From a virus, in the IMG/VR virus record IMGVR_UViG_3300046003_005078, positions 1 to 29,531 of that record: a stretch of DNA of 29,531 nt; one strand, 5' to 3'. This document shows, piece after piece, positions 585 through 28,965 of the stretch. The notes below the pieces were generated by a model. The model was not told the origin of the DNA and made no database searches. It was given only the letters and a program-made list of their open reading frames with translations. Made by a program: the position numbers and the translations under genes. Each line of letters begins with the position of its first letter. Positions within the stretch are counted from its first letter, which is position 1.

Positions 585-1175
585 CTAAATCATAACGTTC
601 TTTCCATAGATGGGTGTTAATGAAACCCCAAAGAACTTTGTTATACCAAATAATATGGCTAAGTAGCTTAGGTCTCCTAAAAGTGTATTTTGAAAAAATG
701 GAAGACCTGCCGCATAGGATGCCATTAAACCCATATAATTTTGTGGGTAAATTGGATTATTTATCCAGCTTCCGAAATTAGTAATAAGAAAAAACAAGGT
801 AGCAGTTAAAAACCCCGTTAAAGCCAATTTTGGTATAGAAACTTTATTTAAAATAAGCCAACCGATGGGTACCATTAACAGAAATGAACCATATACCCAT
901 ATTGAACCAAACAGATTGAAACCATAATAATATTCAGTATACTGTATAGGATAAATAACGTTATTAATAAACAAGTCACTTAACCACATGGCAATAATCG
1001 GAATAGCAAATGCCCAAATTTTTCTACCTATAAAGTAACTACCAAAGATAGCTATACCGCCAACGGGTGTGAAGTTATGTGGGTGTGGTATCAATCTACT
1101 AAACGCTGCCAGTAAAATGAGGATTACGACGAATTTCAGGGTGTTTTGTTTTTTATCCGTAATATCTTTTATCAT
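585..1175 (-). CDS. DUF6580-like integral membrane protein
   Basis: 196 residues with about five hydrophobic segments. The pattern RLIPHPHNFTPVGGIAIFG (about 27-45), MWLSD (63-67), LFFLITNFGSWI (127-138) and GLPFFQNTLLGDL (157-169) is what I remember of the DUF6580 family, a group of small bacterial membrane proteins often seen in Bacteroidota; I do not know an established function. The length is normal for that family and the frame is intact, so it appears functional. It is preceded by a 77-base gap in which I see no promoter of the main class, and it is followed by a 155-base gap holding the promoter of the next gene. A family like this is normally chromosomal, so it is probably a host-derived auxiliary gene. 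A transporter S-component-like role is only a guess. Confidence 0.7.
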   Translation of the reverse strand: MIKDITDKKQNTLKFVVILILLAAFSRLIPHPHNFTPVGGIAIFGSYFIGRKIWAFAIPIIAMWLSDLFINNVIYPIQYTEYYYGFNLFGSIWVYGSFLLMVPIGWLILNKVSIPKLALTGFLTATLFFLITNFGSWINNPIYPQNYMGLMASYAAGLPFFQNTLLGDLSYLAILFGITKFFGVSLTPIYGKNVMI

Positions 1176-2908: not shown

Positions 2909-3646
2909 CTATTTATTAGGGGTGGATATGTGTTTACGGTATATATCTATATTACCATTTTCATCGATTAAAATAGCGCTCATATTTTCCACCCAATCAC
3001 CGCTATTGAGATATCGTTTACCATCTATCATTCTATCTTCTGGCTGATGTATGTGTCCGCATATCACTCCATCACAACGTTTTTTAGTAGCCATTCTTAA
3101 TGCTGATACTTCGAAATCGTTTATATAATTCGTAGCAGCCTTAACACTATTTTTAATTTTCTGAGATATGGATTGATATGGTAGCTTTCTCCAAACCCTA
3201 TATCGATTATACCAACGATTCAGCCAAAGTGCTAAATCATATCCGGCTGAGCCTATCTTTGCTATCCATTTATATTTAGATATAAATACATCTATAACAT
3301 CCCCATGAAAACAATAGTATTTTTGTTTGTTCACATTTAGGATATAATCCTCTCTTATTTCAATCGACCCAATATGATTATTCATAAATTCTTGAATAAA
3401 TTCATCATGATTTCCTCTAATCCAAATAATACGAGTTTTATTAGAAATCTTTAATAACTTACCGATTACTTTGGTATGAGATTTTCTCCATTTAGAACCT
3501 CTATTCAAGGCCCAACCATCGATAATATCTCCATTAAGAATTAATAATTCAGTAGAATGTGATTCTATAAATTCTATGAACTCATCGGATTTGCTATCAA
3601 TAGTTCCTAAATGTAAATCTGATACTATGATTGATTGATATTTCAT
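2909..3646 (-). CDS. LpxH-like metallophosphoesterase (UDP-2,3-diacylglucosamine diphosphatase-like)
   Basis: 245 residues carrying the full calcineurin-like set: SDLHLG (9-14), NGDIIDGW (38-45), RGNHDE (77-82), HGD (114-116) and CGHIHQPE (196-203), all metal ligands present. The SDLHLG plus GDIIDGW plus late GHIHQPE layout and the 245-aa length match UDP-2,3-diacylglucosamine hydrolases (lipid A pathway) and their undefined relatives in Bacteroidota. Its start overlaps the stop of the small membrane protein gene by 4 bases, which in turn overlaps the GT2 gene, so the three form one operon that probably acts on envelope lipids or glycans. Exact substrate is not determinable from sequence. Confidence 0.85.
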   Translation of the reverse strand: MKYQSIIVSDLHLGTIDSKSDEFIEFIESHSTELLILNGDIIDGWALNRGSKWRKSHTKVIGKLLKISNKTRIIWIRGNHDEFIQEFMNNHIGSIEIREDYILNVNKQKYYCFHGDVIDVFISKYKWIAKIGSAGYDLALWLNRWYNRYRVWRKLPYQSISQKIKNSVKAATNYINDFEVSALRMATKKRCDGVICGHIHQPEDRMIDGKRYLNSGDWVENMSAILIDENGNIDIYRKHISTPNK

Positions 3647-3927
3647 TTTTTAAATAATTTTTGCCAAATTGTATTATTAGGATTGCCCAACTGCATTCCA
3701 ATATATTTTCCTAATACTGAACCTATTATGTAGAAAATAACAATTCTAAAATTTCCTTTCAATAAATCATCAATTGCGTAATAGGTAGATGCCAGTGCAA
3801 CTACATTTAACCAAACTGAATTTAATAATAAAGCTCCTATTTTATTCTGATATGTATATTTTATTTCTAATACTTTAAAAATATTAAACAATGTTTGCGC
3901 CAATAATACAATTATTTCTTTATACAT
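3643..3927 (-). CDS. Small integral membrane protein, 94 aa
   Basis: Three hydrophobic segments: about 5-20, 30-50 and 60-80 (FRIVIFYIIGSVLGKYIGMQLG). The C-terminus is basic (WQKLFKK). No family assigned with confidence; the size and GKYIGMQLG ending resemble small membrane proteins I have seen in phage genomes. ATG overlaps the upstream GT2 stop (TAATG) and its own stop overlaps the phosphoesterase start, so translation of the three is probably coupled. It could be the membrane partner of the glycosyltransferase or phosphoesterase; that is inference from context only. Confidence 0.72.
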   Translation of the reverse strand: MYKEIIVLLAQTLFNIFKVLEIKYTYQNKIGALLLNSVWLNVVALASTYYAIDDLLKGNFRIVIFYIIGSVLGKYIGMQLGNPNNTIWQKLFKK

Positions 3928-4622
3928 TAGTTCCAGTAATTGTGATGTTTTTTGAAAAAGTTAGGATTATTCCGGTTGATATAACACAAAATAGTTAGCA
4001 ACCCCATATAAAAAACCCCTTTATTCTTAAATCTTCTTGCAGATGTCCACACTCCCTTTGTATTGTGTATTTTCATACTTTCCGATTTTTGCGAAACCCA
4101 ATAATCTTCTGCGAACAAATGAGTTTCATCATAGCCGCCGGTTTTCCAATATGCTTCAGTTTTCCAAAATTGAAATCCACCTACTGCAAATGGCGTTCCT
4201 AACCAATTACTCATTCTTTGTTGAATATCAAATAATCTAAATATCCAATTATAGTTATCATCTGTTTGAAGCGAAACGGTTACCAAATCTGCATCATACG
4301 CCAAACATTCAGCTATTATCGATTTATCCTGAAGCATTATATCCGCATCTAAGAATAGAATATATGGAGTTTTAACTAGCTTGCTACCTTCAAATCTGGC
4401 TTTAGCTGGGAATCCTCCTTTTATGATTTCTATGTTTAGTATATGTTGGAAATCTCTTTTGGTATTCTTTAAGAAATGTAAACTTTCCAACTCATCTGAA
4501 TTATCTGCTATGATGATATTCGTTCCAATGATACCCGTTTGCTTAGATATAAGCTTTATACATTCGTAAATATTATCCCTTTCATTTTTACATGGGATTA
4601 TGATGGTTATTATATCTTTCAT
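3927..4622 (-). CDS. Family 2 glycosyltransferase
   Basis: 231-aa GT-A fold enzyme. ITIIIPCKNERDNIYECI (5-22) is the nucleotide-binding first strand, FLDADIML (90-97) gives the DxD metal site at D92/D94, and the AEDYW motif near 167-171 is the usual catalytic ED(W/Y). Two hydrophobic patches near the C-terminus (YMGLLTILCYI) suggest membrane association. First gene of a three-gene overlapping operon with a membrane protein and an LpxH-like phosphoesterase; the substrate is probably a lipid-linked or lipid A-like acceptor. A hairpin with weak T-tract lies just upstream (4636-4658), separating it from the holin candidate. Confidence 0.85.
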   Translation of the reverse strand: MKDIITIIIPCKNERDNIYECIKLISKQTGIIGTNIIIADNSDELESLHFLKNTKRDFQHILNIEIIKGGFPAKARFEGSKLVKTPYILFLDADIMLQDKSIIAECLAYDADLVTVSLQTDDNYNWIFRLFDIQQRMSNWLGTPFAVGGFQFWKTEAYWKTGGYDETHLFAEDYWVSQKSESMKIHNTKGVWTSARRFKNKGVFYMGLLTILCYINRNNPNFFKKHHNYWN

Positions 4623-4635
4623 GGTTATAAATAGT

Positions 4636-4658
4636 AAACCCCTACAAATGTGTAGGGG
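4636..4658 (-). terminator. Hairpin, possible terminator after the 86-aa membrane protein
   Basis: Perfect 8-bp stem CCCCTACA (4639-4646) / TGTAGGGG (4651-4658) with a 4-base loop; on the minus strand it is followed by only TTT. It stands between the stop at 4678 and the GT2 start at 4622, a normal place for a terminator, but the short T-run makes it weak. Confidence 0.5.
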
Positions 4659-4677
4659 CTTAGATGTTAATAAATTA

Positions 4678-4938
4678 TTAACCTATTTCATCATCCGAAT
4701 TATCTGCTTTTCGTTTTCTGTTTATGAATTTATCGAATGATGCAATACCGAATGCACCAAGTGTAATTACCATGAATCCATCAAAAATAAATTCGTGAAT
4801 CGGTAGCTCTCTACCTGATATACCTGTAGCAATATCTACAAATAGTGTAATAATCATCATAATAAACGCAGCAAATCCTACAACCGATTTTTCATTAATG
4901 TCGTTTGAATCTCTAAATAAATCGTTCCAAAATTTCAT
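4678..4938 (-). CDS. Two-TM small membrane protein, holin candidate
   Basis: 86 residues: short polar N-terminus (MKFWNDLFRDSNDINEKS), a hydrophobic segment about 19-38 (VVGFAAFIMMIITLFVDIAT), a loop, a second at about 50-68 (FIFDGFMVITLGAFGIASF) and a highly charged tail (FINRKRKADNSDDEIG). The NEKSVVGF ... D..TGI ... LGAFGI..FDKF pattern resembles small phage membrane proteins found in T4-like phages, often annotated holin-like. Two transmembrane segments and a charged C-terminus fit a class II holin. A GH19 endolysin lies 1.6 kb upstream. No biochemical role is proven by sequence. Confidence 0.65.
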   Translation of the reverse strand: MKFWNDLFRDSNDINEKSVVGFAAFIMMIITLFVDIATGISGRELPIHEFIFDGFMVITLGAFGIASFDKFINRKRKADNSDDEIG

Positions 4939-5001: not shown

Positions 5002-5190
5002 CTACAAACGCCTATCATTTAATATGACATCCATTGGAGCCAATATACAATATACTCCAATGGATTCAAGAAAGCTTAGCTCTACAAATATCATTGGAAA
5101 TAAGTAGGTAATATACGATATCAATATTCCTATTATACAGGTAAAGATTGTGACTCCAAGCAATTTTAAAATTTTTTCTTTCATTTTCAT
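5002..5190 (-). CDS. Small two-TM membrane protein, 62 aa
   Basis: Begins MKMKEKILKLLGVTIFTCIIG; a basic N-terminus is followed by hydrophobic segments at about 10-28 and 30-52 and a charged end (ILNDRRL). No family recognised. It has its own promoter of the TTTG-N20-TATATT class ending 17 bases before the start, so the leader is very short; the second in-frame ATG (5184) is an alternative start with the same A-rich context. Could be a holin/antiholin partner of the neighbouring 86-aa protein, or a superinfection factor; neither is demonstrated. Confidence 0.65.
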   Translation of the reverse strand: MKMKEKILKLLGVTIFTCIIGILISYITYLFPMIFVELSFLESIGVYCILAPMDVILNDRRL

Positions 5191-5206
5191 TTATTTATTA
5201 TTCACT

Positions 5207-5236
5207 AATATAAGACATTTTTAGTAAATTACCAAA
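5207..5236 (-). promoter_or_regulatory. Promoter, TTTG-N20-TATATT type (copy 3)
   Basis: Minus strand ATTTGGTAAT with TTTG at 5233-5236, exactly 20 bases, then TATATT at 5207-5212. Only 17 bases from the ATG at 5190, so the transcript would have a leader of about ten bases. It lies in the 77-base gap after the hemA stop and isolates the 5190 gene from hemA transcription. Confidence 0.72.
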
Positions 5237-5267: not shown

Positions 5268-6506
5268 CTACAAAAATGCATTATACTGTTCTTTAACAAT
5301 TTTCATCGGAATCCCTATGCATTTCTTCTCCATATATGTCATTATAGTATCGATGATTTTTATTGTAGACTCATCCATGTTCTCAAGATCTTTTTTAAAA
5401 ACGTTTGTAATAGCATTTTCCTTCATTGCCCGTATTTCCGAAGGAATTGTGTTAAATAATATTTCAATTCTCCGTTGATTGTATATCTTGTTAAATTTCT
5501 GAACATTGATGTATATTATAAATGCAGCTTTAGTCAGTTCGGATTCTCTAAATGATTTGTTCTCATGTGCTATTTTCCGTAGAGATTCGACATCTATATA
5601 ATCTACATATGGTAATCTTGCAACTTCATCTACTATATTATTTGGAACAGCTAAATCAACTATAATCTTCGGAGTAATCTCTCCACCAACTAATTGAGTA
5701 TATTCAGTAAATCCAACTACCGGTTCGGTAACAGAAATACAGGATATTATAATATCGGCACCCTCTGTATATGTTTTTAAATCACTTAGGAGTAAAGCCT
5801 TTCCATTTGGAAATAATTTAGCTATAGTTTCAGCCTTTGATAGTGTTCGATTAAATACACTAACATTTGTAAACCCCTTATTTCTTAATATCTTAGCCAC
5901 AGTATGGTTCGTTTGACCTGCGCCAATTAGTATAATTTTTGAATCTGAGTTTACAGAACATTTCATTAGTTTAAATACAGCTAATGATGCAATGGATACC
6001 GATGTTTTGCCGATTTTAGTGTTATTAAATACCTCTTTAGATGTTAGAAATGCATTCTCCATCAATATACGAATCCAATCACCACATATATTAGTATTTT
6101 TTAATGTATTATAGGTATTACGCAGTTGATAAACAATTTGCCGTTCACCCACTACTAACGAATCGACTGATGATGCTACTTTGAATATATGCTGTATAGC
6201 ACCGATTCCTACATAAATACCAACCGATTGTTTTAATACTTCAATATCACTATCTGATAAATTGGGTATAAATCTATTATACATTGAAACTACGGTATCG
6301 TTAGATATATGTGCTTCTCCATATAATATAAACATTACTCTATTGCAAGTAGAAATGTATAGTAATTCGCTAACGCCAAACCACTCCTTTATAGCAGACA
6401 ATTTATCTACAAATTCTTCATTGGATTCAGGTAAAATAAATTTTCCTAAATCTTTTAAATTTGTATTATGATATGATATCGTTATAATTTTATAGTTTGA
6501 TATCAT
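5268..6506 (-). CDS. hemA: Glutamyl-tRNA reductase
   Basis: 412 residues, full family length. It reduces glutamyl-tRNA(Glu) with NADPH to glutamate-1-semialdehyde, the first committed step of C5 tetrapyrrole synthesis. Visible: the catalytic STCNR with nucleophile Cys54; His106 in QHIFKVASSVDSL and G120-E-R-Q123 of the glutamyl-binding region; the Rossmann glycines ILIGAG (192-197), NRT at 219-221, DIIISC and VDLAVP of the NADPH domain; and a C-terminal helical dimerisation part ending FNTIPSEIRAMKENA...FKKDLE. All signature residues look intact. The start at 6506 lies 11 bases after the endolysin stop, so it is in a lysis-gene transcript and has phage-like AT-rich codon use. A complete C5-pathway gene is unexpected in a phage; hosts of this type normally carry their own copy. 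Confidence 0.93.
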   Translation of the reverse strand: MISNYKIITISYHNTNLKDLGKFILPESNEEFVDKLSAIKEWFGVSELLYISTCNRVMFILYGEAHISNDTVVSMYNRFIPNLSDSDIEVLKQSVGIYVGIGAIQHIFKVASSVDSLVVGERQIVYQLRNTYNTLKNTNICGDWIRILMENAFLTSKEVFNNTKIGKTSVSIASLAVFKLMKCSVNSDSKIILIGAGQTNHTVAKILRNKGFTNVSVFNRTLSKAETIAKLFPNGKALLLSDLKTYTEGADIIISCISVTEPVVGFTEYTQLVGGEITPKIIVDLAVPNNIVDEVARLPYVDYIDVESLRKIAHENKSFRESELTKAAFIIYINVQKFNKIYNQRRIEILFNTIPSEIRAMKENAITNVFKKDLENMDESTIKIIDTIMTYMEKKCIGIPMKIVKEQYNAFL

Positions 6507-6517
6507 ATTAATTTCGT

Positions 6518-7117
6518 TTAGTTCAATAAATTATAATATTCTTTAAAATGAGCGATTCTATCTACTAATCCAATAGTTCCACCGTTTACTCTCTTTGTAA
6601 TAGAAGTCACAACCGAATCGGCCGCTCCCCCATCAGCTATAGTATTTAATCCATTTTTAGACCAGAACCAAGCCGCAGATAATAGTGCGTATTTCGATGA
6701 TACCAAGTCAGGATTAGCACAGATATCTTCTCCAATGGATTTTCCAAATAAAGTATAATTTGCTTTACCGGTTAATTGTATGTATCCCCTACCTCTAAAT
6801 TTATAACCATCACCACTTACTTCAGAGCCATTACCCATACGATTTGCATATACTTTATTTGCAATTTTTTGAGGTTTTCTAGCATAATCGACAGCAGATG
6901 CTTCGGTTGGGAAATATTTATTAAAAACACGCGTTAATGCTTTTGCAGAGTAATTTAAGTTTTCTTGAGTTACCTTAAATTTTCCGCTCTCATGAGCACA
7001 TTGTGCTATGAAATGAGCCAATCTGATTGGTGTGTTTATCTGAAAATCATCAGCAGTTGCTGGAATCAATTGTATTACTGAATCTGGAATATGTCCTTTT
7101 AACTTATCTATCATCAT
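6518..7117 (-). CDS. GH19 endolysin (chitinase-class-I-like lysozyme)
   Basis: 199 aa, single catalytic domain, no signal peptide. IRLAHFIAQCAHESGKF (31-47) carries the general acid Glu43 and TQENLNYSA (50-58) the second Glu52; SGDGYKFRGRGYIQLTGKANY (101-121) is the GH19 signature; TKRVNGG and a final aromatic helix (RIAHFKEYYNLLN) complete the fold. GH19 proteins of this size in phages cut peptidoglycan for lysis. With no signal peptide it needs a holin; two small membrane genes follow downstream. MM at the start leaves two possible ATGs (7117 or 7114). Confidence 0.92.
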   Translation of the reverse strand: MMIDKLKGHIPDSVIQLIPATADDFQINTPIRLAHFIAQCAHESGKFKVTQENLNYSAKALTRVFNKYFPTEASAVDYARKPQKIANKVYANRMGNGSEVSGDGYKFRGRGYIQLTGKANYTLFGKSIGEDICANPDLVSSKYALLSAAWFWSKNGLNTIADGGAADSVVTSITKRVNGGTIGLVDRIAHFKEYYNLLN

Positions 7118-8003: not shown

Positions 8004-8035
8004 AACTTTTGTTTTTAATTGTTTACTATAACGTA

Positions 8036-8065
8036 AATATACAATAATAATTTCACTTTTACAAA
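8036..8065 (-). promoter_or_regulatory. Promoter, TTTG-N20-TATATT type (copy 4)
   Basis: Minus strand TTTG at 8062-8065, exactly 20 bases, TATATT at 8036-8041 (TTGTATATTTAC). The TTTG is made by the end of the T-rich tail of the terminator of the receptor gene, so terminator and promoter overlap. It serves 8003-7548 and rules out the longer start at 8096. Confidence 0.75.
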
Positions 8066-8114: not shown

Positions 8115-11100
8115 TTATCTTCCAAAGATATATCTAAGCCCCAACTGAGCACTCCATACATCAAATACTGATGTGTTGTATTGGTAAGTATCTCTAGCTA
8201 ATACCGTAGAACCATCTACTAACCTTTGAGTTGCTAATCTATATACAGGTTCGCCTGCTGATGTAGTGGATGTATAGTTTAAGATAGTTGGAATAGTTGC
8301 TCTCTGAGATACTCCCCAATTATCATTCAACATATTACCAAAATTTAATATATCGGCTCTAATCTGAATAGTATTAATTTTACCTTTAATATTTACAAAA
8401 ATATCCTGCACTACTGATAAATCAAATCGATTCAACATAGGTATAAATGCTCCATTTCTTTCCGCATATTCTCCTCTACGAGAAGATAAATATTTGTCCT
8501 GATTAATGTAAGAATCAAATGCGGTTTGTTGCTCAGCTTCACTATATGTTCGTGTACCTACAACTAATGGTGCAAATTTAATATCAGAAGCGGTTTTTGG
8601 GACATAAATCAGTTCGTTATTTGGAATTCTATCTCCATTCATATCTCCGCCAACTGTGTATGAGAATGGATTACCACTATTTCCAACATATCCAAGTGTA
8701 AATGAAGTTGCTCCACCTTTAGTTTTTCCGTATTCCAATTTATATCCTACTAAACCAACTAAACGGTTTGGTGATACAAAATCTGAATTTGTTAAATCAA
8801 GAGTATTGTTTCCGTTTACACTTCTTGCTCCAGTCCAACTACCACTTGCAATAGAACCAGCGCTCATATAATCCCTAGCCGATGATACAGTCCATGCAAC
8901 TGAACCAAATACACCATTTTGGTATGGGTATTCCAGCTTAAATGTCAATGATTGAAAATTAGCACCACCTTTATTAGTTAATACAACTGCATTTGAAACA
9001 TTATCGTTAACTCTAACTCCGCTATCATTACCTGCGAATCTATCTCTCCTATCAACGCCAACAAATCTACCAATTGGTGATTCCAAATTTGCGTTATAAT
9101 AATGAACTGCATTTATATTTCTATTACCAATAAACTCAATTGTTCCAATAAAGTCAAATGGCAATTTATGGTCAACTGCTATATTACTTTTGAATACTTG
9201 TGGAAATTTATATTGGGTATCCGTAAATGCTAAATCAAATGTCGATGGTAACGTTGGCGTAGATGGTATAAAATATTTATTAGGGTCAGCTGTAAATCCA
9301 TATTTACTTGCAGCAGAACCACTTACATCTATGTAACCCGTAAGAACGCCATTGTTACCAATTTGATTTGAAATAAACACATATGGTGGTCTGCCTGTAA
9401 AAATACCAGCACCACCTCTAATCTGTGTTCTCTCATCACCTTTCAAATCATAGTTAAATCCTAATCTGGGTTCAAATAATAACTGAGTTTTTGGTAATAC
9501 TCCTGTATTAAATTGCTCACCATTGGCAAATATCATTTTAGATACTGCTGGATTTTCCAATGCTGTTTGGGAAAATCCGATAACGGATGCTCTTAAACCA
9601 AATGTTAATTTTAAATTATCATTATATTGAAACGCATCTTGTCCATACAAATCCAATCGATTCGTTTTTAAAGTCTGCAAAGGTTCAATTGCACCAGGTA
9701 ATGCTGAGTAACGGAACTGAAACCTAGCTGGAACTATAGTTGAGGGTGCTCCTGCGTTTGCAAGTGATTGATTGGCTGCATTATAGAACTCTTCTAAACT
9801 ATTAAAAATATAAACTCCGTTAGATGCTGGAAAAAATAAGTTATTAGACTGATATCTTTCGTAGTTAACCCCAGCCGTAAGTGTGTGTTTATTTACATAC
9901 TTTGTTAAGTTGTTTGTAATATGAAATGTGTTATAGTCTAATTTATTACCAGGAGTAAATGGGTCAAATCCTACAGAAGTAAGAGTAGTTGCTCCTTCTT
10001 TTATATCAATAGTTGGAAACAACTGAGAGCGATATGCCCTGTTTTCTATTTGCCTATCTAACCCAACAATTAAGTTATTATATAATGTGTTTGATAATTT
10101 AGAATTCAATTCCAATACATAAGAACGAGTATTATCCATAATAATGTAACCACTATTCTGAAAACTCATTGATAGCGGAGATTGAGTTCTATCACCAAAT
10201 CCAGCAGATCTTGAATTTGAAATATTAATTTCAGCATCGGAATTATGATGTACATATCTCGCAGTTAATTTATGCGCATCATCGATGTTCCAATCCATAC
10301 GAATTAAAAACTTATTAGATTCATTTGCATTCGAATAACCTTCAAACGGACCCGTAACATAATTGAACTTATCTTTCATAAATTTAGATAAATCCGATAA
10401 CTGTGCAAATGTGGGTCTACTTACCTGTGAACCAGTTAATGGGGATCCCGTTGAAATCCAAGTAGTTCCTGGTTCAGTTTTCTTTATTGATTCATAGTTA
10501 CCAAATATAAATAATTTATTCTTAATAATTGGTGCTCCGATACGAAATCCCTGAACCCTCTCATCAAATTTAGATGCGGTTACTGCTGTCCCTCTAGCTT
10601 CATTACCTACATATTTAGAACTATTATCTCTATATGTTCGATAAACTGAGCCTTCGATTTCATTTGTACCTGAGCGGGTTACTGCATTGATACCTGCGCC
10701 CGTAAATCCACTTTGACGGATATCGAATGGTGCTATATTAACTTGTAGTTGTTCAATTGCATCTAATGAGATTGCACTCGATCCTGTTCTACCGCCTGCC
10801 TGTGCAGAAGAGCCTAATCCGAATCCATTATTAAACTGCGAACCATCGATAGTAAAGTTATTCAAACGGGAATCTTGTGCTCCGAATGAATTTCCGTTTC
10901 CGTTTGGATTATACTTTGTAATACCATCAATTGTTCTTGCTCCTGTAATTGGTATACTCTGTAAATCCCGTCTAGTAAATTGTTGAGATGCTCCAGTCCG
11001 TTCCTTTGAAATTACGTTATTTACACCGGCACTAATAACTACCTCTTTGAGTTCAATATCTTGTGGGAATAAATAAAAATCAACATTCGTTGATAATCCC

Positions 11101-11387
11101 AACTGAGTATTAATGCCCTTAATTTCATCTTTACCGTATCCAACATATGTAGCTTGGATTGTATACGGGCCTCCCACTCTAACCGCTGGGAATATGTATC
11201 TACCATTATCATTAGTAGATGTTGAATACTTACTACCCGTTGGTATGTGTACTGCTTGGATTGTTGCTCCAACCAATATTTCGGATTTCTCATTCGTAAC
11301 AACACCGGATATAGAAGATGTGGTTATTTGCCCAAATCCTAAAAATCCTGATAATGTAAGCGGAATCCATAACATTAATTTTTTCAT
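8115..11387 (-). CDS. Oar-like TonB-dependent outer membrane receptor
   Basis: 1090 residues, full length for the Oar-like group. Signal peptide about 1-19 (MKKLMLWIPLTLSGFLGFG), a carboxypeptidase-regulatory-like beta domain about 24-108 (SISGVVTNEKSEILVGATI ... NGRYIFPAVRVGGPY), a TonB-box-like ELKEVVISA (112-120), a plug (about 125-240, with NNFTIDG and AGINAVTRSGTNEIEG) and a long outer-membrane barrel with many aromatic strands, ending SAQLGLRYIFGR with the near-terminal Phe used for barrel insertion. In Bacteroidota these proteins import unknown ligands or affect surface behaviour. The gene stands alone between two terminators (11409-11440 and 8063-8093), as an added cassette would; I see no clear promoter between the first terminator and its ATG. 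Intact frame over 3.3 kb argues for selection. Confidence 0.92.
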   Translation of the reverse strand: MKKLMLWIPLTLSGFLGFGQITTSSISGVVTNEKSEILVGATIQAVHIPTGSKYSTSTNDNGRYIFPAVRVGGPYTIQATYVGYGKDEIKGINTQLGLSTNVDFYLFPQDIELKEVVISAGVNNVISKERTGASQQFTRRDLQSIPITGARTIDGITKYNPNGNGNSFGAQDSRLNNFTIDGSQFNNGFGLGSSAQAGGRTGSSAISLDAIEQLQVNIAPFDIRQSGFTGAGINAVTRSGTNEIEGSVYRTYRDNSSKYVGNEARGTAVTASKFDERVQGFRIGAPIIKNKLFIFGNYESIKKTEPGTTWISTGSPLTGSQVSRPTFAQLSDLSKFMKDKFNYVTGPFEGYSNANESNKFLIRMDWNIDDAHKLTARYVHHNSDAEINISNSRSAGFGDRTQSPLSMSFQNSGYIIMDNTRSYVLELNSKLSNTLYNNLIVGLDRQIENRAYRSQLFPTIDIKEGATTLTSVGFDPFTPGNKLDYNTFHITNNLTKYVNKHTLTAGVNYERYQSNNLFFPASNGVYIFNSLEEFYNAANQSLANAGAPSTIVPARFQFRYSALPGAIEPLQTLKTNRLDLYGQDAFQYNDNLKLTFGLRASVIGFSQTALENPAVSKMIFANGEQFNTGVLPKTQLLFEPRLGFNYDLKGDERTQIRGGAGIFTGRPPYVFISNQIGNNGVLTGYIDVSGSAASKYGFTADPNKYFIPSTPTLPSTFDLAFTDTQYKFPQVFKSNIAVDHKLPFDFIGTIEFIGNRNINAVHYYNANLESPIGRFVGVDRRDRFAGNDSGVRVNDNVSNAVVLTNKGGANFQSLTFKLEYPYQNGVFGSVAWTVSSARDYMSAGSIASGSWTGARSVNGNNTLDLTNSDFVSPNRLVGLVGYKLEYGKTKGGATSFTLGYVGNSGNPFSYTVGGDMNGDRIPNNELIYVPKTASDIKFAPLVVGTRTYSEAEQQTAFDSYINQDKYLSSRRGEYAERNGAFIPMLNRFDLSVVQDIFVNIKGKINTIQIRADILNFGNMLNDNWGVSQRATIPTILNYTSTTSAGEPVYRLATQRLVDGSTVLARDTYQYNTSVFDVWSAQLGLRYIFGR

Positions 11388-14471: not shown

Positions 14472-14507
14472 CTAATATCTTTTACGTCTATCAATTAACT
14501 TCCCTTA

Positions 14508-14537
14508 AATATACAAAAAATATAAATTAAAGTCAAG
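14508..14537 (-). promoter_or_regulatory. Promoter, CTTG-N20-TATATT variant (copy 6)
   Basis: Minus strand CTTG (14534-14537), exactly 20 bases, TATATT (14508-14513). The leader from TATATTTAAGGGAAGTTAATTGA to AAAGATATTAGATG is almost identical to that of the upstream paralogue (15374-15415), so promoter and leader were duplicated with the gene, the -33 box then drifting from TTTG to CTTG. Confidence 0.68.
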
Positions 14538-15373: not shown

Positions 15374-15409
15374 CTAATATCTTTGGTGGTTGTCAATTAA
15401 CTTCCCTTA

Positions 15410-15439
15410 AATATACAAAAAAATATTGAATTTACCAAA
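15410..15439 (-). promoter_or_regulatory. Promoter, TTTG-N20-TATATT type (copy 7)
   Basis: Minus strand ATTTGGTAAA with TTTG at 15436-15439, exactly 20 bases, TATATT at 15410-15415, 37 bases from the ATG at 15373. Same distance to the start as copy 6. Confidence 0.76.
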
Positions 15440-28933: not shown

Positions 28934-28935
28934 CA

Positions 28936-28965
28936 AATATACAAAAATATTTTGAATTATCCAAA
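28936..28965 (-). promoter_or_regulatory. Promoter, TTTG-N20-TATATT type (copy 8)
   Basis: Minus strand ATTTGGATAA with TTTG at 28962-28965, exactly 20 bases, then TATATTTG at 28934-28941, the full Bacteroidota -7 form TAnnTTTG. It is 19 bases from the nuclease ATG and fixes the choice of start there. Confidence 0.78.

Follow-up and report, generated by a model that had tools for sequence, protein, structure and literature searches.

A glutamyl-tRNA reductase gene behind the endolysin of a phage genome, and its probable role in tetrapyrrole supply

Why would a phage carry glutamyl-tRNA reductase (GluTR, HemA), the enzyme that opens the C5 route to tetrapyrroles? The question is raised by a hemA gene in a 29.5-kb virus record of IMG/VR, which was analyzed over its whole length and is called the window throughout. 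Tetrapyrrole genes have been found in phages before, and the first-pass annotation was right to count among them the 5-aminolevulinate (5-ALA) synthase of freshwater phages, an enzyme of the C4 route (Wegner et al. 2024, PMC11480375). This synthase, AlaS, is functional and rescues 5-ALA auxotrophic E. coli, thus giving a precedent for phage control of 5-ALA supply; the same authors suggested that phage AlaS spares Glu-tRNA for translation (PMC11480375). The GluTR family is already known, and it is the phage role that is new. Our answer, to which we assign a probability of about two in three, is that hemA would be an active auxiliary metabolic gene raising or sustaining tetrapyrrole supply in a large T4-like Saprospiraceae phage.

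Identity of the hemA product

The gene is an open reading frame of 412 amino acids running from 6506 to 5268 on the minus strand with an ATG start; the plus-strand translation contains many stops. When compared with TIGR01035, the NCBIfam hemA equivalog, the product reached 248.5 bits, above the curated cut-off of 209.55 (E 1.1e-73), and covered profile positions 3-396 of 416, which is near full length, while Pfam returned GlutR_N (97 bits) and Shikimate_DH (95 bits); these scores place the family assignment far beyond chance. A full-length HemA at 5268-6506 had been proposed at first pass, and the present analysis upholds its identity, length and coordinates, with the strand corrected to minus.

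The active site appears intact. The catalytic Cys54 lies within TCNR and His106 within QHIFKVASSVDS, both residues being where they were initially read, and the nucleotide-binding (NADPH) motif is GAGQTN at 195-200. C54, R56, H106 and G195/G197 are invariant positions in the alignments and each tested residue is present; altogether the protein keeps 21/21 invariant and 39/40 near-invariant residues (90% level), and its C-terminal MTYMEKKC segment, a conserved region, is intact. Departures from conserved sites were seen at some positions (for example E167K, K168T and A350L), and few conserved positions are changed at the N-terminus (e.g. H12Y); no feedback site established for Bacteroidota HemA was found in the literature.

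The AlphaFold2 model (pLDDT 80.7, pTM 0.58, C-terminal end poorly modelled) is predicted to hold the catalytic, NADPH and C-terminal helical domains of the GluTR fold. The seven best PDB chains retrieved by Foldseek were all GluTRs (5che, 1gpj, 4n7r, 5yjl; E 1e-22 to 1e-18), at TM values of 0.49-0.66 and with domain placement reproduced only in part; such modest scores are expected because the domain angles are not fixed. A structure search of the BFVD viral library returned no GluTR-like protein. The product did not classify as a PLP-dependent 5-ALA synthase of the vAlaS type, GluTR being the sole full-length family above its cut-off, and no synthase or aminotransferase family was present among its profile matches. 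Judged from its sequence, the product of 5268-6506(-) is a complete glutamyl-tRNA reductase with an intact active site.

A cargo slot among phage genes

The window encodes a clamp-loader protein, an exonuclease, a holin-like protein and an endolysin. The features relevant to the locus are the following:

6518..7117, minus strand: GH19 endolysin, bordering the cargo slot upstream (phrog_181, E 2.7e-71; PF00182)
5268..6506, minus strand: hemA, glutamyl-tRNA reductase, the cargo gene (TIGR01035, GlutR_N and Shikimate_DH, catalytic residues, Foldseek)
5206..5236, minus strand: conserved leader of the next gene, promoter-like (TTTGG-N-TATATTA), immediately 3' of hemA (comparison with relative locus L098)
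5002..5190, minus strand: 62-aa membrane protein, bordering the slot downstream (homologs of 33-49% after the endolysin, directly or past cargo, in relatives)
4678..4938, minus strand: 86-aa membrane protein, possible member of a lysis cassette, in the downstream phage block (homologs up to 65% in 26/80 phage loci; no Pfam or PHROG family)
4635..4662, minus strand: terminator-like hairpin ending the endolysin-hemA-62aa-86aa segment (12-bp stem, consensus scan)
2909..4622, minus strand: phage block with a GT2 glycosyltransferase (3927-4622), a 94-aa protein and a metallophosphoesterase (2909-3646) (Pfam)
585..1175, minus strand: DUF6580 putative membrane transport protein, a second host-type gene (PF20221, 165 bits)

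The start of hemA is 11 bases beyond the endolysin stop, which agrees with the spacing and the neighbor named at first pass. On its other side, the leader TTTTATTTGG...TCTTATATTAG follows hemA directly here and follows the endolysin (past a hairpin) in L098, where the slot is empty; hemA therefore fills precisely the space that separates the endolysin from the next gene's leader. The flanks of this host-type metabolic gene are phage genes on both sides and recur in other phage contigs. Relatives of the endolysin were found in IMG/VR viral contigs (n = 261, the best 80 of 261 at 76-81%), the glycosyltransferase and the metallophosphoesterase were each present in 74-80 phage loci with up to 78% identity, and 125 relatives of the metallophosphoesterase were detected in IMG/VR contigs; some contigs with endolysin or phosphoesterase relatives measure 180-290 kb.

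By glycosyltransferase and endolysin, the nearest described relatives are Flavobacterium phage vB_FspM_immuto (Immutovirus, 160 kb) and 'Microcystis' phage Mel-JY01 (190 kb). Their gene neighborhood is similar, although both are distant (45-55% in glycosyltransferase/endolysin) and have no hemA in the annotated regions examined; in immuto a holin comes after the endolysin, unlike hemA here. Considering the widespread endolysin and phosphoesterase relatives together with these phages, the window most likely represents part of the genome of a large phage infecting Bacteroidota. The location of hemA in a phage genome is well supported by this context, and so is the earlier statement that a conserved, full-length enzyme of the C5 route is found in a phage. 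The endolysin and glycosyltransferases of the Mel-JY01 record (PP395634.1) are among the closest to this group of Bacteroidota phages, and its stated cyanobacterial host may be questionable. The endolysin of the window begins at its own ATG, and its relatives carry an in-frame upstream extension resembling a peptidoglycan-binding region (ADGIVGDGTWAKIMGE), which may have been lost in this phage.

Both flanks of the slot were present in 14 relative loci; as L191 and L098 lie on one contig, 13 are distinct. The slot is empty in 6/13 (L098, L136, L196, L208, L252 and L256), with a gap of 33-91 bases between the flanks, and holds one to three other genes in the remaining 7. By eye, this cargo is SGNH-like in L056, L064, L128, L130 and L133 and ADP-ribosyltransferase-like in L062 (17771-18817); L233 carries a pair of GT2 and phosphoesterase genes. 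None of the 13 has hemA. The post-endolysin slot is a cargo hot spot among relatives.

Elements of the form TTTGG-N(about 20)-TATATT precede start codons on the minus strand at 28935-28965, 15409-15439, 14507-14536, 8035-8065 and 5206-5236, the latter being the leader downstream of hemA, so that four other genes of the window have a similar element. They are possibly a promoter of this phage group, of the Bacteroidota-like -33/-7 kind. No such element was seen in the 11 bases preceding hemA, and the gene is thus probably co-transcribed with the endolysin; a scan for sigma-70-type promoters gave a result at chance level.

Single-sequence, Saprospiraceae-profile and general GluTR-motif scans of 2.9 million IMG/VR viral contigs detected no further HemA; these scans require exact short motifs and may omit records near the window, and "unique" means here not found elsewhere in the data searched. 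HemA was also absent from 42 whole relative records and from 173 relative loci, PHROGs has no family matching the protein, and HemA matches labelled as phage in GenBank were weak (at most 31% identity). Two 'phage' records with hemA, CAKLQH020000007.1 and OR844993.1, were rejected as unfit evidence for phage HemA: the former, the annotated match, is a bacterial chromosome segment (lolB, hemA, dnaG, yfiO, rluD), and the latter an unannotated UNVERIFIED record of 163 kb. Host contamination was rejected given the phage flanks on either side of hemA, matches in phage collections being no more than 31% identical. HemL was sought in 31 relative phage records and none scored above cut-off, with one weak aminotransferase-like match. 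No earlier report of a phage GluTR was found in a literature search that left out most subscription papers and bioRxiv. Phage hemA is therefore known from one record, a single metagenomic contig.

Origin of the gene and the candidate host

In a tree of 76 HemA proteins, the phage HemA is the sister of one Saprospiraceae genus with support 100/100, a genus of the same family as genome G004. Seven genomes of the genus, with one HemA copy each, show 52-54% identity to the phage protein, and no cellular copy reached 55% or more in the genomes sampled. The terminal branch of the phage HemA is 0.91, compared with 0.39 for the stem of the sister genus. When sites are ranked by variability, the phage protein departs from the consensus of the host genus at 11% of positions in the most conserved fifth and at 75% in the most variable one, with a steady increase between (Mann-Whitney p 1e-19); in this single phage copy the conserved residues are kept and the substitutions gather in variable sites. 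The GC content of the gene is 30.3%, with phage genes at 32 ± 2% and hemA of the host genus at 37-38%, and its codon use is closer to phage genes than to host-genus hemA. The long branch, the phage-like composition and the kept conserved sites argue for an old acquisition and a long residence under purifying selection. Phylogeny against Bacteroidota HemA had been proposed as a check, a recent passive host fragment with decaying sites being the outcome that would count against the gene; no such fragment was seen.

The DUF6580 protein is 72-73% identical to copies in three genomes (G547, G577 and G649), the next best genome being at 57%, and no relative was found in other viral contigs; it is a second host-derived gene, probably more recently acquired. 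HemA and DUF6580 are each nearest to the same Saprospiraceae genus, and from these two genes one host genus is indicated. HemA and HemB are present in G577, G547 and G649, and in G577, the one genome checked for it, HemL is also found above the NCBIfam cut-off; the phage HemA would thus feed an existing pathway.

One gene counts against this host assignment. A 1090-aa outer-membrane beta-barrel protein (OMP; 8115-11387, minus strand; CarboxypepD_reg and OMP_b-brl_4, Oar-like) is nearest to other Saprospiraceae than the genus of HemA and DUF6580, with cellular homologs at no more than 54% in the sampled members of the family. Since copies of about 70% identity recur in 13 other phage contigs (L056-L068), it would be a long-standing phage gene and less reliable as a guide to the host; its role is perhaps superinfection exclusion or uptake. 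A true host without hemA was dropped as the main reading: HemA is missing from all five genomes that match the OMP best, but four of the five show no HemB either, and HemA alone would be useless in those four because HemB was not seen there. HemA and DUF6580, which point to other genomes, oppose it as well. In our sample of 150 Saprospiraceae species genomes (completeness not known), 95 have HemA and HemB, 45 neither, 4 HemA only and 6 HemB only; members of the family seem often to have lost the entry to tetrapyrrole synthesis altogether.

What the phage enzyme may do

We propose that a large T4-like phage infecting Saprospiraceae would carry GluTR as an auxiliary metabolic gene in its variable post-endolysin slot. 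The phage enzyme would convert host Glu-tRNA(Glu) with NADPH into glutamate-1-semialdehyde, host HemL would turn this into 5-ALA, and host HemB would form porphobilinogen, from which heme, siroheme or corrinoids would be made; respiratory heme would be the most likely sink. In the bacteria studied GluTR is a regulated entry step, and in S. aureus HemX reportedly controls its abundance. As this step is the first to which the pathway is committed, and normally the one under control, a single phage gene would be enough to hold or raise tetrapyrrole supply, and a phage-borne, possibly unregulated copy is a plausible way to keep up or increase it. We infer catalytic activity, co-transcription with the endolysin, a net gain in 5-ALA and a benefit to the phage, and likewise flux, feedback escape and timing. 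What stands against this explanation is that the host seems already equipped with hemA, and the sequence shows no reason for a second copy. More tentatively, and at somewhat less than even odds, the phage lineage may have evolved a GluTR free of feedback, the first known C5-route entry enzyme of a phage, that takes over control of Saprospiraceae 5-ALA supply and has a long phage-specific history.

HemA supplies every tetrapyrrole branch (PMC11480375), and the gain could lie in siroheme or cobalamin rather than heme, for example for a B12-dependent ribonucleotide reductase or methionine synthase. We regard this as rather unlikely: no corrinoid gene was identified within the 29.5-kb window, which is a partial phage genome, and there is no cobalamin or other riboswitch in the window or near host DUF6580, hemA and hemL. 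It is also improbable that hemA is a passive hitchhiker, a chance host gene in a tolerant slot, of no benefit and heading to decay. The slot does admit genes of unrelated kinds, roughly half of the relatives examined leave it vacant, and hemA was found in only one phage record; however, although about 47% of the amino acids differ from the nearest host copy, the frame is intact, the conserved sites are kept and codon use is phage-like.

An action on translation, by diverting Glu-tRNA(Glu) from the ribosome or altering how charged tRNA is used late in infection, has very little probability in our view: tetrapyrrole flux is small relative to translation, late protein synthesis of the phage itself would suffer, and the window has no tRNA gene. 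The substrate is indeed common to translation, and the converse was proposed for phage AlaS by Wegner et al. (PMC11480375), but a drain on Glu-tRNA is an unlikely purpose of the phage HemA. We likewise give scant credence to a non-catalytic partner, in which the phage subunit would pair with host GluTR and protect it against proteolysis or feedback control. Known GluTR structures are dimeric, the MTYMEKKC region is conserved and changes such as E167K, K168T and A350L fall in otherwise conserved sites, yet this role would not require the kept catalytic Cys, His and Arg and the NADPH motif. An assembly chimera, with bacterial hemA wrongly joined to phage sequence, is conceivable for a single metagenomic contig but highly improbable given phage genes on both sides at natural spacing, including the next gene's leader at nucleotide level, phage-like GC and codon use, and no cellular copy of at least 55% identity in the sampled genomes.

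As an auxiliary gene for tetrapyrrole supply, phage hemA resembles vAlaS (PMC11480375) in being carried by an aquatic phage, in encoding the first tetrapyrrole step and in supplying the host pathway at 5-ALA with one gene. They differ in route, since vAlaS uses glycine and succinyl-CoA (C4, Shemin) whereas the HemA of this Bacteroidota phage uses Glu-tRNA (C5); moreover, vAlaS often shares a cassette with heme oxygenase and a bilin reductase, and the hemA window has no other tetrapyrrole gene. Compared with cellular HemA/GtrR of the Saprospiraceae type, family, domain order and catalytic residues are alike, but the cellular gene lies beside aroQ- and aspS-like genes, whereas phage hemA follows an endolysin, is AT-richer and has the long branch of 0.91.

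Phage-encoded 5-ALA formation was previously known only through the one-enzyme C4 route, a choice explained partly as compact and Glu-tRNA-sparing; a C5 enzyme in a phage contradicts that choice as a general rule. This suggests that the shared purpose is control of 5-ALA supply, with the enzyme chosen to fit the host pathway. A phage GluTR that has diverged by 47% from the host form would be useful for locating regulatory residues, and the gene adds a metabolic function to a little-studied group, the large freshwater phages of Bacteroidota.
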